DNA of 35,262 nucleotides from Acidobacteriota bacterium (GTDB lineage: Bacteria; Acidobacteriota; Terriglobia; Acidiferrales; UBA7541). The notes beneath the pieces were generated by a model. That model saw only the letters and a list, made by a program, of their open reading frames with translations. It was not told where the DNA came from and ran no database searches. The stretch lies in the NCBI GenBank assembly GCA_003224525.1, contig QHZB01000215.1, positions 1 to 35,262 of the forward strand, read 5' to 3'. Every line of letters begins with the position of its first letter. Within the stretch, counting starts at the first letter, position 1. Positions 29,255 through 35,262 of the stretch are shown here, one piece after another. A program made the position numbers and the translations under genes.

Positions 29255-30691
29255 TCAAGCCGCTTCGCGGGCCTTCGCGCGGGCGCCGCGCCAATACAGC
29301 GTCAATCCCAGCACAATTGCGGCCACGGTTCCGCCAACTAGCTTCAATTCGAATCCCAACTTATCCGCCGAATCCCCTGGCGGCACCAGCGAAACCAGAA
29401 TGCCAATCAATACGATCATCAAGCCCGTTCCGGAGACAATCCATACGCCTGCTTTGCCTCCCGGGATAAGCACAGCATCTTTGTTTGCGCGCCGGTCCGG
29501 TCGCGGATACAGCTTGATCGCCGCCGCAAACATATAGATGAAGGGGATGAAGTACAGAATGATGGTGGCATCCACGAGAAACTGATATGCACCACGCGTT
29601 GTCTCATTGACCTGGCTGATCAGCAGGATCGCGCACGATACGGTCGCTTGCACCAGGATCGATACGTAGGGCGTCTTCCAACGCGGATGAATTTTCCCGA
29701 ACGCTGCCGGCAAGTAGCGGTCGATGCCAACCACGAAAGGCACGCGCGCAATCCCCGCCACCGTGCTGCCGACGCCGCCCGCGTTGCCGACGGTCACCAC
29801 CACTGCGGCAAGAATTCCCAGCGCGCCGATTTTCAGCGCCATCGACCCCGCGGTAATTGCATGGAACACGCCGCTGGTGGTGGATACCTCGGCCGCGGGC
29901 ACCAACGCCAGCACCGCAACCGTCGCCACGATGTACATCCCGGCAATCAGCACGCCTGATGCATACACCGCCCGCGGCAGCGTTTTCTGCGGATCGCGCA
30001 CTTCCTGGCTCATCGCTGAAACAAGCTCGAGCCCGCTGAACGCAAACGCAATTTGCGACCAGAAGTTCACGGTGTCCCAATTCCAGACCGGCAACATGTT
30101 GGACCACGTGAAATGGGTCAGCGCTCCGTGCTTCGCCCACAGAATCGCCGCGATACCCAGCAGTGCCAGCAGCGGCAAATAAGTAGACACGCCCCCCGCA
30201 TTCTGTAGCCATTTGCCGATGTTCAATCCGATGATATTCAGTCCGACGGCCACCACCAGCATGCCCACAGAGACGGAAAGCAAGAACATCCGGTTTTGCG
30301 AAAGCACCGCGCCATTTTCTCCGATGATGTACGCGCTCATCGCCGCGCTGGCCAGCAACAACCCCGGGAAATAAAACACCGTGTAAATCCAGTAGTTCCA
30401 GCCAGCCACGAAGCCGTGAAAATCTCCGAACGCCTCTTTGGCCCAGACGTAGAGTCCGCCCTCTTCCGGAAATCGCGATGACAATTCATTGATCACCAGC
30501 GCCGAAGGCACGAAAAACAACAGCGCCGCAAGAATCCACAAACTGATCGACGAAGTTCCATTGTGCGCTGCCGCCGCCACCCATCGAGGACCTAGAACCG
30601 TCGCGATGTTGAACAGCAGGACGTCCCAGAAGCCCATTTCCCTGCGAAGCTGTTTGATTGCATCTGGAGGACCGTCCCCTGTCTGACTCAC
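29255..30691 (-). CDS. APC-superfamily amino acid permease
   Basis: Membrane protein of 478 residues with about 12 helices. It starts MSQTGDGPPDAIKQLRRE and reads GFWDVLLFNIATVLGPRWV, a helix I of APC permeases. ELSSRFPEEGGLYVWAKEAFGDF and FAFSGLELVSAMSQEVRDPQK are strong APC signatures; the latter resembles the region seen in glutamate/GABA and polyamine antiporters. The substrate is not predictable. It starts at GTG 30691, which overlaps the stop of the ABC ATPase as GTGA, so translation is probably coupled. It is the last gene of a mobA-ABC-APC run. Confidence 0.9.
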   Translation of the reverse strand: MSQTGDGPPDAIKQLRREMGFWDVLLFNIATVLGPRWVAAAAHNGTSSISLWILAALLFFVPSALVINELSSRFPEEGGLYVWAKEAFGDFHGFVAGWNYWIYTVFYFPGLLLASAAMSAYIIGENGAVLSQNRMFLLSVSVGMLVVAVGLNIIGLNIGKWLQNAGGVSTYLPLLALLGIAAILWAKHGALTHFTWSNMLPVWNWDTVNFWSQIAFAFSGLELVSAMSQEVRDPQKTLPRAVYASGVLIAGMYIVATVAVLALVPAAEVSTTSGVFHAITAGSMALKIGALGILAAVVVTVGNAGGVGSTVAGIARVPFVVGIDRYLPAAFGKIHPRWKTPYVSILVQATVSCAILLISQVNETTRGAYQFLVDATIILYFIPFIYMFAAAIKLYPRPDRRANKDAVLIPGGKAGVWIVSGTGLMIVLIGILVSLVPPGDSADKLGFELKLVGGTVAAIVLGLTLYWRGARAKAREAA

Positions 30692-31464
30692 AGAGTCACG
30701 TCCAGCGCGGGAATCAATTCATCCAGCAGGCGGAAATTCTTGAGGAAGGGATCGCTTGAATTCTCAAAATCGGCCCAGGGTCCGAAGAAGGTTACGCGGC
30801 CTTCCTGGAGAAAGACGACCACGTCGGCGAGCCTTTTTGCCAGATGCGTGTCGTGCGTCACGACGATCGATGTCTTTTGAAACGCCTTCTTAAGACGCAG
30901 GATCAATTCGCCCATGTGCCCCACCATGATCGGGTCGACCATGGTCGTCGGCTCGTCGAACAAGATCGCCTCGGGATTCTGCGCCAGCGCGCGCCCGATG
31001 GCCACCGCGCGCTTCATCCCGGTGGAAAGTTCGCTCGGTAATTTGTCGAGGACGTCGTCCACTTCCAGCATCTGCGCGATTTTCATTACGTATTCTTCGA
31101 CATCCTCATCGGTCATACCAGGCTGCCCTTCGAGCGGGAATGCCATGTTATCGCCAACCGTGAGCGAGTCGAAGAGCGCGCCGGATTGAAAGACCATGGT
31201 CACCTTGCGCCGCACTTCTGCGAAGTCCGCTTCCTTGAATTCGGTGACGTCCTCTCCATCGATGAAAATCTGTCCCGCGTCCGCTTTCAGGAAACCCATG
31301 ATGTGCTTCAGCGAAACGGACTTACCCACGCCGCTGCGGCCCATGATCACGCAGGTCTCTCCGCGCTTTACCGCGAAGCTGACGTGATCGAGCACCAGGC
31401 GCTCGTCGAAGCTCTTGCACACGTCGCGGAACTCGAAGTAGTTGACCGGCTTCTCTTCGCTCAC
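30688..31464 (-). CDS. MlaF-like ABC transporter ATPase
   Basis: ATP-binding protein of 258 residues, closest in pattern to the MlaF/Ttg2A lipid-transport ATPases. Walker A is GRSGVGKS (42-49), Q-loop Q93, signature LSTGM (146-150), Walker B ILFDE (167-171), followed by PTTMVDPIMVGHM, H-loop H204. The ABC signature is unusual, with Thr for the second Gly of LSGGM. There is no MlaE permease or MlaD binding protein adjacent; instead an APC permease follows. It starts at GTG 31464, overlapping the mobA stop as GTGA. ATP hydrolysis looks possible, but the partner is not visible. Confidence 0.85.
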   Translation of the reverse strand: MSEEKPVNYFEFRDVCKSFDERLVLDHVSFAVKRGETCVIMGRSGVGKSVSLKHIMGFLKADAGQIFIDGEDVTEFKEADFAEVRRKVTMVFQSGALFDSLTVGDNMAFPLEGQPGMTDEDVEEYVMKIAQMLEVDDVLDKLPSELSTGMKRAVAIGRALAQNPEAILFDEPTTMVDPIMVGHMGELILRLKKAFQKTSIVVTHDTHLAKRLADVVVFLQEGRVTFFGPWADFENSSDPFLKNFRLLDELIPALDVTL

Positions 31465-32096
31465 GGGCGCTCCGCTTCCAGAATCCGCCGCGCTTCCTCG
31501 TAATCCGCCGCCGTATTCATATTCCAGAACAATCGCCCCGCGCTATCAAATCGTTTCCAGTCCACCTCGTCAAGAACTTCCGCGTGGAGCAGTGCGATTC
31601 CTTCGGTCACTTTGCGCACGCCGCGTTCGAACCCGGAACGCAGCTTCGCCGCCGCGCTCGTTTGCCAGCAAGCGCAGAGCGGTTCGGGCCCAGACGCCGA
31701 GTGCGGAAAAACAACTTGCGCATTGCTTTTTGCCGCGCGCGCGCTAAGAAATACCAGCCACTCGGGCGTCAAGAACGGCATGTCGCAGCTTACGATCAGA
31801 TTCCATCCCCTATCCGCAGGCCTCTTGGCCGCATTTTCGAGCGCAGTGATGATTCCACCCAGCGGTCCCTGCCCGGGCCAACCGTCCGCTACAAGCTGCG
31901 CTCCAAATTCCACATATTTATCGGGCGTCGCAACTAATCTCAGGTCTTTCGTCACGCTGCGCATCAGTTTCACCATTCGTGCCAGCATCGGCTGACCATC
32001 AAACTCCACCAGAGCCTTGTCCCGCCCAAATCGCGTGCTCCCGCCTCCCGCCAAAATGTATCCGGCGACTCTCGCTTCGCTTTTCCCAGCAGTCAT
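31461..32096 (-). CDS. mobA: Molybdenum cofactor guanylyltransferase
   Basis: MobA attaches GMP to molybdopterin to form the bis-MGD cofactor. 211 residues with the nucleotidyltransferase signature LAGGGSTRFGRDKA (15-28), GPLGGI (77-82) and SCDMPFLT (D105 binds Mg2+). WNMNTAADYE near the end is also family-typical. The length is close to E. coli MobA. It could also act as a MobA-like cytidylyltransferase, but the pattern favours MobA. It opens a three-gene run: its TGA overlaps the ABC gene as GTGA. A dispersed repeat lies in its leader. Confidence 0.9.
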   Translation of the reverse strand: MTAGKSEARVAGYILAGGGSTRFGRDKALVEFDGQPMLARMVKLMRSVTKDLRLVATPDKYVEFGAQLVADGWPGQGPLGGIITALENAAKRPADRGWNLIVSCDMPFLTPEWLVFLSARAAKSNAQVVFPHSASGPEPLCACWQTSAAAKLRSGFERGVRKVTEGIALLHAEVLDEVDWKRFDSAGRLFWNMNTAADYEEARRILEAERP

Positions 32097-32327: not shown

Positions 32328-33728
32328 CTACTCCTCCTCCAGCGGTTCTCTGCCCGGCCGCCGGATCCCCAGCTCGCGCAATTTCTCCTGCAGACTCTGC
32401 CGGTGCAGCCCGATCGTCGCCGCGGTTCGCGAGACGTTCCAGCGATGCTCCGCCAGTTGCCTGGTCAGGTAGGCCACTTCGAATTTTCGCTTGGCCTTGC
32501 GAAAATCTCGTTCGCCAATTCCGCTGTAGTGCTCGTCGCCGCGATGCTTCAGCGAGGTCGACTCGCCGTGCACCACCTCGCCGGGCAAATCTTCGACGCC
32601 GATCTCGTCGCCGCGGGAAAGCACCAGGCTTCGTTCCAGCGCATTCTTCAACTCGCGCACATTGCCCGGCCAGTCATATTTCTCAATTGTGGTCATGGCG
32701 TCGCGCTTGAGCCCCGCGGTCCGCCCCAGCCGCGCACCATGCATTTGCAAAAAAGTCTCCGTCAGCAACGCAATATCTTCTTTGTGAGCCCGCAGCGGCG
32801 GCAGGTCAATGGTCACCACGCGGAGCCGGTAGAACAAATCCTCGCGAAACTTTCCACCACGAATCTCCGCCTGCAAATTGCGGTGCGTCGCGCTGATCAC
32901 CCGGACGTCCACCGGAATCGACTGCGTGCCGCCGAGCCTTTCGATGGTGCGATTTTCCAGCACGCGCAACACTTTGGCCTGCGTCACCGGATTCATGTCG
33001 CCGATCTCATCCAGGAAAATCGTTCCGCCCGAGGCCAGTTCGAATTTCCCTTTTTTCTGCTGCGCTGCGCCGGTAAACGCGCCGCGCTCGAAACCAAATA
33101 ATTCCGATTCGATCAGCGTTTCCGGCAGCGCCGCGCAATTCACCGCAACATAGGCTTTGCCGCTTCGCGGCGAGCGCGCATGAATCTCCTGCGCCAGCAA
33201 ATCCTTTCCCGTGCCACTCTCTCCCAAAATCAGCACCGTCGAATCCGTCGCCGCCACGCGGTCCGCCATTTCGAACGCCCGCCGCATCTCCGCCGAGCGG
33301 CCGATCATCTGGCCGAATTGTCCTTCGGTCGTCAAACGCCGCCGCAGAGCGTCATTTTCTTTTTCAAGTGTCACCAGCTTCAGCAGGTTCGACACGCGCT
33401 GCCGCAGCTCTTCCAGCTCGAAACCCTTCACTAAGTAGTCCGCAGCGCCAAGCTGCAGCGCTTCGACTGCCGTCTTGGCGGTGTCCAGCGCAGAAACCAT
33501 TAGCACCGGCACTTCGCCCCCTTGCTCGCGCATCCAGCGCAGAAACGATAGCCCGTTCTGGCCTGGCAACACCACATCCAACAACACCAGGTCCGGTCGC
33601 TCGCGAGCAAGTGCTTCTCGCGCCGCTTCGGCCGAATCCGCCTCCGCGATCCGGTACTTGGCCTCCAGCGCTCTGCGCAGCCCGTATCTTGCCGCGGGTT
33701 CGTCATCCACGATCAAAATGGTCTTCAT
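32328..33728 (-). CDS. Sigma-54-dependent NtrC-family response regulator
   Basis: Enhancer-binding protein of 466 residues. The receiver domain (1-120) has DD at 8-9, phosphoacceptor D51 in LLDVVLPG and K101. The AAA+ domain has GESGTGKD (169-176), the sigma-54-contacting GAFTGA loop (216-221) and Walker B GGTIFLDEIG (234-243). The C-terminal Fis-type HTH (about 415-460) has WNVSRTAATIGLHRQSLQEK. It is a complete NtrC-like protein. Its ATG overlaps the kinase stop as ATGA, so it is co-translated with its likely partner. Targets are unknown. Confidence 0.95.
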   Translation of the reverse strand: MKTILIVDDEPAARYGLRRALEAKYRIAEADSAEAAREALARERPDLVLLDVVLPGQNGLSFLRWMREQGGEVPVLMVSALDTAKTAVEALQLGAADYLVKGFELEELRQRVSNLLKLVTLEKENDALRRRLTTEGQFGQMIGRSAEMRRAFEMADRVAATDSTVLILGESGTGKDLLAQEIHARSPRSGKAYVAVNCAALPETLIESELFGFERGAFTGAAQQKKGKFELASGGTIFLDEIGDMNPVTQAKVLRVLENRTIERLGGTQSIPVDVRVISATHRNLQAEIRGGKFREDLFYRLRVVTIDLPPLRAHKEDIALLTETFLQMHGARLGRTAGLKRDAMTTIEKYDWPGNVRELKNALERSLVLSRGDEIGVEDLPGEVVHGESTSLKHRGDEHYSGIGERDFRKAKRKFEVAYLTRQLAEHRWNVSRTAATIGLHRQSLQEKLRELGIRRPGREPLEEE

Positions 33729-35262
33729 GATTCTCTTTTCCTTACTTCGTTACTTCGTTGCTTCTTGGTTTCTTCCATCGGTAGCGTCACGTGGAATCGC
33801 GTGCCGCGCCCGTTTCGCACGGGGCTCTCCCAATCCACCTTGCCACCGAACTCGGCCACGCGTCGTGCCACAATCGCCAGACCCAGTCCTGTTCCTTGCG
33901 ACTTTGTGGTAAAGAAAGGCTGGAGAATTTTTTCTCGCAGCGCTGCCGGAATTCCCGGCCCATTATCTTCCACCGCGAGCGTACAAACTCCATCGTTCGA
34001 AGCAGCAGACACCATGACGTGCCCCCCGCGCGGCGTTGCCTCCAAAGCATTCACCACCAGGTTGGACACAATGTCGTTCACCGCTTCCGCACTAGCCGCC
34101 ACCGATGCGCTCCCGCCGGAAACTTTTATTTGCATCTGCAGGCCTCGCCGTTCCGCCTCGTGCGACAAGAGGCCCGCCACCTCTTCCACGACCACTCGGG
34201 CATCGCAACTGCCAATGGCGCTTCCTCCCCGCACCGCTGGCCGGCTAAATTGCAGCAACTGATTCAGCTTCGTTGAGAGTCGGCCCACTTCTTCCAGCAC
34301 CATCTTCGTTTCGGCACGCATGGAGTCGGGAAGCTCCGGATTCTCCAGTTGCACCTGCAATATGGTCTTCATGGATCCCAACGGATTCTTCAGGTTGTGC
34401 GAAATGCTCGCCGCCATCTGTCCCACCAGCGCCAGCCGTTCGCGCTCCGCCAATTCCCTTTCCAATCGCAGTTTCTCTTCAATCAGCCGGCACAAATCCA
34501 GTGCCCCTGGCAACTGTTCACACAAGAACTCTAGCGCCGCCCTCGTCTCGCCCGAAAGCGCAGCGCCGTGCGGCTCCGCTTCGAGCGCGGCCATCAGTTG
34601 GGACCCTTGCCGTAAAACAAAAACTCGGTCCCTCAGTGCTGCGGAGGCTGCCCGTTCCTCCGGCGTTCTCGACGACGGCCGCAATTCTGCTTTGCTCTGA
34701 TCGACGAGCGTCAGGTTTACTGCTGCCAGCTCAAACACTTCCTTCACGCGCCCCTCGATGAAACGCACGAGTCCTCGCAGATTTCCCTGTCGCGCTTCCT
34801 GCTGAATCTCCGCCGTCAGCCGCTGGACGCGGTCCATTTCTCGGTGAGCCGTCTCCTGCAACCTGCGTCCGAGTGCGCGCTGGAGCGGTTCGATAAAAAT
34901 CACCAACACGAATAGCAATACGGATGCCGAGGCTTCCGGCGGAAGAAGCGGTTCCAGCCAGGTGCCGACACGACGGACAAGGCTCAGGTACAGCAAGGCA
35001 AGGAAAGTGGCCGAAATGGCGTAGAGAAGATTCTTCTGCCGGCCGATCTGCAAAAAGTTATGCCGAAATACAAGATAGACAAGCACGCTGAAAGGCAGGA
35101 TCGGGAGCAGCGAAAAAGCCGTAGCCAGCACCTCTGTGGTCCGCGGCTGCATAGGAAACGGTCCCAAATGCAAGCCATCGACCGCCAGAAAGGACGCCGC
35201 GAAAAATACCAACAGCGCGCAGTGAAAATAGCGCTGTGGCTTATCCGGGGCGGCCGTTGCGA
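33725..35262 (-). CDS. Sensor histidine kinase, 5' end outside window
   Basis: Kinase partner of the adjacent response regulator. The reading frame is open to the right edge (no stop from 35262), so the gene is cut; the TTG at 35212 is not its real start. The visible N-terminal part has several membrane helices (about five), then a GAF-like or coiled linker and a HisKA-like domain: SISHNLKNPLGSMKTILQ (the phosphorylated His), then N-box NDIVSNLVVNALEATPRGG, G1 VEDNGPGIP, F-box ILQPFFTTK and G2 GTGLGLAI. The last residues KKQRSNEVRKRES are encoded by a dispersed repeat (33740-33772), so the tail is not conserved-looking. Confidence 0.92.
   Translation of the reverse strand, partial: ATAAPDKPQRYFHCALLVFFAASFLAVDGLHLGPFPMQPRTTEVLATAFSLLPILPFSVLVYLVFRHNFLQIGRQKNLLYAISATFLALLYLSLVRRVGTWLEPLLPPEASASVLLFVLVIFIEPLQRALGRRLQETAHREMDRVQRLTAEIQQEARQGNLRGLVRFIEGRVKEVFELAAVNLTLVDQSKAELRPSSRTPEERAASAALRDRVFVLRQGSQLMAALEAEPHGAALSGETRAALEFLCEQLPGALDLCRLIEEKLRLERELAERERLALVGQMAASISHNLKNPLGSMKTILQVQLENPELPDSMRAETKMVLEEVGRLSTKLNQLLQFSRPAVRGGSAIGSCDARVVVEEVAGLLSHEAERRGLQMQIKVSGGSASVAASAEAVNDIVSNLVVNALEATPRGGHVMVSAASNDGVCTLAVEDNGPGIPAALREKILQPFFTTKSQGTGLGLAIVARRVAEFGGKVDWESPVRNGRGTRFHVTLPMEETKKQRSNEVRKRES
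33740..33772 (-). repeat. Type B dispersed repeat at the end of the kinase gene
   Basis: Agrees with 5934-5966 at 27 of 33 positions, with a 13-base identical run (CCTTACTTCGTTA on the plus strand). In the kinase it is translated into the last codons; in ychF it follows the stop codon. Both copies lie at the 3' end of minus-strand genes. Confidence 0.6.

Follow-up and report, generated by a model that had tools for sequence, protein, structure and literature searches.

What does an ATPase of a lipid-transport family do when it is encoded between a cofactor gene and an amino-acid carrier? The question is raised by a 35,262-nucleotide stretch of DNA, referred to below as the window, from an Acidobacteriota bacterium (assembly GCA_003224525.1, contig QHZB01000215.1, here C363, positions 1 to 35,262). 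The genome comprises 6.47 Mb in 516 contigs and is 98.15 % complete. A first-pass annotation had described three successive genes in the order mobA, MlaF-like ATPase and APC permease, joined by two GTGA overlaps. The open reading frames (ORFs) and coordinates turned out as described: a MobA-like gene, a gene for an MlaF-family ATP-binding cassette (ABC) ATPase, called FX here, and an APC carrier gene follow each other with a 4-nt GTGA overlap at both joints. Most likely, this is a conserved genus-level operon whose middle gene belongs functionally elsewhere. We think it fairly probable that FX works in an Mla/MCE-type lipid ABC transporter whose ATPase is a heterodimer. FX, encoded in trans, would be the catalytic half of this ATPase, and the decayed partner would be F264, which is encoded on another contig (C264).

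FX scores 109.6 bits with the Pfam model ABC_tran (cut-off 25), its Walker A, Walker B and H-loop are all intact, and its closest solved structures are MlaF/MceG-type ATPases. Its two best NCBIfam names both stay under their cut-offs, proV with 164.6 bits (326.6) and NF008809, the equivalog for MlaF of MlaFEDB, with 163.7 bits (441). A contig scan returned four close relatives, all Acidobacteria metagenome-assembled genomes, two of them labelled gp2, and one distant ABC protein. At E<=1e-60 FX is found in 55 of 61 genomes (its own and 60 relatives), with a single match in each; loci were fetched from the 54 others, 33 of the same genus and 21 from outside it. In an IQ-TREE phylogeny of 101 MlaF-type ATPases, FX belongs to a clade of 74 rows (support 99/93), among them rows from other families of the phylum. 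MlaE is beside FX in none of these 74 rows in the fetched short or long flanks, and a hidden Markov model (HMM) of MlaE has no match in the 54 FX loci, nor in 8 longer ones; absence was judged by Pfam PF02405, compared by eye, together with the HMM, which was built from 17 MlaE rows. All 27 tree rows outside the FX clade adjoin MlaE (17 come from loci picked for MlaE, 10 do not), and in a larger set MlaE is in the flank of 129 of 143 non-FX rows and not in that of the remaining 14. Within its own genome FX best matches two MlaE-linked ATPases (37 % and 41 % identity, E values of 3e-48 and 8e-45), the next ABC protein following at 5e-26. FX is the third, permease-less MlaF-type member in the genome.

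The Mla components themselves are encoded at other sites. The genome carries two mlaE genes (contigs C92 and C264) and two mlaD genes, and since an ATPase gene of its own adjoins each mlaE, FX is an extra, permease-less paralogue. A distant MlaE/MlaD partner, which the first-pass annotation regarded as the ordinary explanation, is the better one. MlaE was found in 61 of 61 genomes. The idea that FX is the missing ATPase of an ATPase-less MlaE was rejected: an MlaF-type ATPase is present in the fetched stretch at 28 of the 29 MlaE loci read, which include the genome's own two and are part of more than 100 MlaE matches. One MlaE (L197:3974-4786, genome G004, contig C111; L-numbers denote fetched loci, G-numbers genomes and f-numbers anonymous families) has no MlaF-type ATPase within about 4 kb.

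F264, the ATPase that stands beside MlaE and MlaD on C264, reads DS for DE in its Walker B and ATQR at its H-loop, and keeps LSGGM and AGLDP. Read by eye, this protein (L118:5621-6457) also has an additional stretch, a few tens of residues long, between the damaged H-loop and the C-terminal part. Where F264 is degenerate, LSGG and GLDP are retained and the Walker-B Glu and/or the H-loop His are lost. The 101 F264 genes counted fall into the types DS/H (47), DE/H (35), DS/Q (11), DE/N (2) and DD/H (2), with DE/Q, DE/S, DS/P and DD/N found once each; the 39 MlaE-linked ATPases of 'other' type all keep Glu and His. Within the taxonomic class of the host, the DS form occurs in families f1 (both genera), f2, f3, f4, f6, f7, f8, f11 and f12, and not in f5, f9 and f10. 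In f9 (two genomes) FX was not found, the only matches at E<=1e-30 being the MlaE-linked ATPase and a 34 % ABC protein, and F264 keeps Glu and His. Families f5 and f10 have FX alongside an intact F264, and their FX branch first in the class, the placement of f5 being weakly supported (94/38). Outside the class, FX-bearing genomes show other F264 losses: Glu to Asp in f45 and f48 (f48 also with His to Asn), His to Gln in f53, His to Ser in G075 and His to Asn in f30. F264 is intact in the FX-bearing genomes G088, G101, G120, G067 and G162, also outside the class. Early-branching lineages show the FX signature change alongside an intact twin, so this change may have come first.

FX has changed in other places. 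Thirty-five of the 50 positions conserved in the MlaE-linked ATPases (first set) are unchanged in 90 % or more of the FX rows, and the signature and the D-loop are the clearest differences between the two groups. The stretch GALFDS after the Q-loop is found in 70 of 72 FX rows and 23 of 27 MlaE-linked rows. According to excerpts of two structural reports (PMC7790496, PMC7367683), MlaE meets MlaF through its coupling helix, which sits in a cleft of the ATPase. GALFDS may be part of this docking cleft. In the larger set, all 74 FX rows have DE in Walker B and the H-loop His. The third residue of their signature is T in 66, L in 4, G in 2, M in 1 and S in 1, i.e., the third Gly is altered in 72 of 74, and the D-loop reads MV in 62 of 74. 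The corresponding figures for 143 other MlaF-type rows are SGG in all 143 (third Gly altered in none) and a D-loop with GL in 142 and GI in 1. Among the ABC ATPases of FX's own genome, of which 15 of 30 loci were readable by pattern, STG or MVDP occurs only in FX.

In ABC dimers, each ATP is bound between the Walker A, Walker B and H-loop of one subunit and the signature and D-loop of the other. The transporter proposed here would consist of the permease MlaE, the MCE protein MlaD and the second ATPase F264, encoded apart from FX (in this genome on C264), with FX as the other ATPase subunit. If FX and F264 paired head to tail, the Walker A, Walker B and H-loop of FX would face the intact signature and D-loop of F264 and form a canonical site; the damaged Walker B and H-loop of F264 would face the altered signature and D-loop of FX and form a degenerate one. 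The damage would meet in a single site of the heterodimer because the changes in FX and the losses in F264 fall in opposite motif sets. Judged by these motifs, neither an FX nor an F264 homodimer would have an undamaged site. ATP hydrolysis would then be confined to one site, as it is in TM287/288 and other asymmetric exporters. Two hallmarks of a degenerate pair are present, with an F264 that lacks Glu and His (DS and ATQR in this genome) and an FX that keeps both and has a changed signature. It is complementarity and co-occurrence that suggest the FX-F264 heterodimer; docking of FX on the MlaE of C264, a lipid substrate and hydrolysis at one site are likewise predictions. The APC carrier would be co-translated with FX in the genus, but as a later neighbour. 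Complementary decay of FX and the cis-encoded ATPase is not visible from the window alone.

Damaged F264 co-occurs with FX. In genomes at least 90 % complete, a limit applied alike to FX-positive and FX-negative genomes, F264 is degenerate in 51 of 61 with FX versus 0 of 25 without (Fisher p 6e-14), and in all 101 genomes with a read F264 the figures are 64 of 74 versus 2 of 27. The two FX-negative cases, G026 and G041, were left out of the remaining comparisons: counted by family, F264 is degenerate in 15 of 20 with FX versus 0 of 12 without (p 3e-5); outside the class, in 7 of 12 FX-positive versus 0 of 23 FX-negative genomes (p 1e-4), or in 5 of 8 versus 0 of 11 families (p 0.005). Completeness values and the family and out-of-class tables were entered by hand. 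G025, G029, G042, G126 and every genome without a read F264 are outside the genome table. The F264 set includes four rows (L301, L304, L310 and L311) placed there by hand because they lay outside the FastTree group, which itself has no support (0.03). The association was also checked forward. G082 and G108 were flagged for a damaged F264 without a known FX, and the second MlaF-like genes then fetched from them belong to the FX clade; both have the signature LSLGS, and their flanks contain no MlaE. The 20 stretches fetched, these two included, held one further FX, in G067, where F264 is intact. A search with the FX of G108 found FX in G162, with signature LGVGA and again an intact F264. The FX of G082 and G162 had been missed by an earlier search, and other divergent FX may remain unseen.

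A number of observations weigh against the heterodimer. The Fisher tests ignore ancestry. The DS loss within the class probably goes back to a single event that many rows share, which makes the counts by family and outside the class the fairer ones. Ten FX-positive genomes keep an intact F264 (f5, f10, f19, f47, f63 and two of f27); FX therefore needs no decayed twin. In G026 (84 % complete) and G041 (59 %), a degenerate F264 occurs and FX was not found. Five FX-negative genomes (G073, G165, G133, G109 and G153) hold a second F264-like copy without Glu or His; these copies (L314, L307, L316, L333 and L336), which were excluded from the count, have a canonical LSGG and no MlaE in the short flank, and the MlaE-linked copy is intact. 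They could be the same solution in mirror image, or decay that is unrelated. For 8 of the 101 genomes, the flank fetched around the counted F264 holds no MlaE, and in G053 and G060 (L288 and L284) the sole MlaE found is on a different contig from F264; there even the decayed ATPase may be encoded away from the permease. Two FX rows, both of f45, carry ISGG with the third Gly intact, and some active ABC proteins may have signatures altered in a similar way.

These points leave room for other readings. FX could form a homodimer that serves one or more MlaE in trans in the manner of MceG, F264 being a non-catalytic accessory or on its way out. One ATPase encoded apart from its permeases has a precedent in MceG, as far as the published excerpts go, and the near-universal GALFDS would fit such a role. 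We nevertheless consider it unlikely: an FX homodimer would have an altered signature and D-loop in both sites, and in most genomes F264 keeps LSGG, GLDP and its place beside MlaE despite the loss of Glu or His, which fits a conserved dimer partner better. Slightly less credit still is given to FX as a non-transport or regulatory ATPase with another partner, its co-occurrence with decayed F264 reflecting shared ancestry, for which the Fisher tests are uncorrected. The neighbours of FX are indeed diverse. A MobA-like gene is the commonest upstream neighbour outside the genus (12 of 21 loci), and the genes behind FX elsewhere include an LPG-synthase-type membrane protein, an acyl-reductase-type gene (f3), a HAD hydrolase, cupin, PilZ and others. 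In f27 and f45 (L207, L209) FX is the last gene of an acyltransferase, SDR, ketosynthase, electron-transfer flavoprotein (ETF) and ETF-alpha run; in f3 (L072, L076) it is followed by the acyl-reductase-type gene, an acyl carrier protein and a ketosynthase; in f48 it lies with a carbamoyltransferase and a lipoyl-synthase-like radical SAM gene, and in f47 with a protein kinase. Lipid-related surroundings (f27, f45, f3) exist but are not general. Shared ancestry, however, does not account readily for F264 losses that arose independently outside the class, all in FX-positive genomes, nor for changes in FX and F264 that are complementary in position.

The most novel suggestion of the first-pass annotation, that the ATPase energises the adjoining APC carrier or regulates it, has lost nearly all its appeal and is now very improbable. 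Within the genus the arrangement is tight. APC is present in 33 of 33 FX loci and adjacent to FX in 31, the APC start codon lying exactly at -4 in all 31 (28 GTGA, 2 TTGA, 1 ATGA); the overlap between MobA and the ATPase varies more and is kept in 14 of 31. Carriers also recur behind FX elsewhere, APC in f4 and f12 and OPT in the sister genus and f2. In the latter two, an OPT carrier (L064:4687-6711, L066:7865-9892) replaces APC between FX and convergent riboflavin genes. Yet conservation of the three-gene order, which the annotation had put forward as a check, is mainly confined to the genus: outside it APC follows FX at only 2 of 21 loci (f12 and f4), and even within it a 487-aa gene (L099:7788-9251, L104:5518-6981; FAD_binding_4 by Pfam for L099) parts FX and APC in two genomes. 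The APC homologues of f5 are not adjacent to FX, and the f4/f12 pair joins the APC tree on long branches outside the genus clade and the f5-like copies. An APC of G050 (f11; L128:6005-7438, contig C84), 74 % identical to that of the window, nests within the genus APC clade (support 100/98), with no MobA or FX in the 13.5 kb fetched around it. As the host genome belongs to another family, this looks like horizontal transfer of APC alone. The motif E-E/Q-x-D-A is found in 0 of 54 APC rows, versus 14 of 17 MlaE rows. The annotation had also reasoned that its idea would fall if relatives carried the ATPase next to mlaE/mlaD and the APC gene elsewhere; APC is indeed elsewhere or absent in relatives, and the ATPase is next to mlaE at 0 of 54 loci. 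FX is far older than its APC neighbour, APC is mobile, and the coupling of the two, which looks recent, is mainly a feature of one genus. APC is probably a genus-level neighbour of FX, not a subunit, and their link is most likely co-expression.

Several known systems resemble the predicted FX-F264 pair in part. FX is like MlaF of MlaFEDB in the GALF(D)S stretch and, in most rows, in the final Met of the signature; unlike MlaF, it does not lie beside MlaE and has a changed signature and D-loop. The E. coli MlaF signature is given as 145-LSGGM-149 in an excerpt of PMC7367683, against LSTGM in the window and a third Gly kept in only 2 of 74 FX rows. MceG, in excerpts of PMC9947336 and PMC9882608, is an MlaF-type ATPase encoded apart from its permeases and shared by mycobacterial Mce1 and Mce4. 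FX is likewise encoded apart from permeases that the genome has, the two MlaE; however, MceG is a homodimer in the Mce1 structure and is shared by Mce operons, whereas here each MlaE locus has an ATPase, one of them decayed. There is also a mechanistic likeness to the asymmetric exporters TM287/288 and BmrCD, with one degenerate site; for TM287/288, the excerpt of PMC5216877 describes a non-canonical Walker-B Asp, a deviating signature and asymmetric D-loops. Those are heterodimeric exporters, whereas FX and F264 are a predicted pair of separate MCE-type ATPase subunits at two loci. ArsA-ArsB, in which a soluble ATPase drives a carrier, would be the precedent if FX drove APC, but ArsA is of another ATPase fold family, and the findings on FX speak against its driving APC. 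A literature search on ArsA/ArsB and on an ABC ATPase with an amino acid permease found nothing, and no description of an FX/F264-like pair was found in the literature searched, most subscription papers being outside its scope.

The features of the window are collected in the table below. The APC carrier scores 189.8 bits with Pfam AA_permease_2 (cut-off 27). The MobA-like protein reaches the Pfam family NTP_transf_3 (121 bits) and stays under the cut-off of NCBIfam TIGR02665 (103.2 versus 151.85 bits), though its best matches are MobA-type models. Overlaps of 4 nt are common in the window: 4 of 25 same-strand neighbour pairs have one according to the gene caller, and 5 of 25 with the APC start of the ORF reading. 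Upstream of the MobA-like gene lie genes for an NtrC-type response regulator and a histidine kinase (window 32328-35212), which overlap each other by 4 nt. Of the 33 same-genus loci, 30 have the regulator and 29 the kinase, and where one is missing the contig is short. A sigma-54-type site between the response regulator and MobA was sought and rejected. No regulatory link is claimed, because the single regular-expression match in 23 regions sits inside a gene.

Table. Genes of the MobA-FX-APC run and motifs of FX in the window.
Feature	Position	Strand	Basis
APC-family amino-acid-type carrier, 478 aa, GTG start	29255..30691	-	ORF and family search
FX, permease-less MlaF-family ABC ATPase, 258 aa, GTG start	30688..31464	-	ORF, family search, tree
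FX H-loop VTHD, residues 202-205, intact	30850..30861	-	alignment
FX D-loop TMVDP, residues 174-178 (xGLDP in MlaE-linked ATPases)	30931..30945	-	alignment
FX Walker B ILFDEP, residues 167-172, catalytic Glu included	30949..30966	-	alignment
FX signature LSTGM, residues 146-150 (LSGGM in MlaE-linked ATPases)	31015..31029	-	alignment
FX GALFDS after Q-loop, residues 95-100, shared with MlaE-linked MlaF ATPases	31165..31182	-	alignment
FX Walker A GRSGVGKS, residues 42-49, intact	31318..31341	-	sequence
MobA-like nucleotidyltransferase, 211 aa	31461..32096	-	ORF and family search

Beyond this genome, we lean towards the broader view that many Acidobacteriota run an Mla/MCE transporter with a two-locus asymmetric ATPase, in which the orphan provides the only competent site and the operon twin has decayed several times independently. 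If true, annotation would need correction, as many Mla operons of these bacteria look catalytically dead and may be driven from another locus. It would also provide a natural series showing, in a lipid transporter, how one-site ABC transporters arise. A phylum that holds the stages side by side (changed orphan with intact twin, changed orphan with decayed twin, and intact twin with no orphan) would make this evolutionary path testable.

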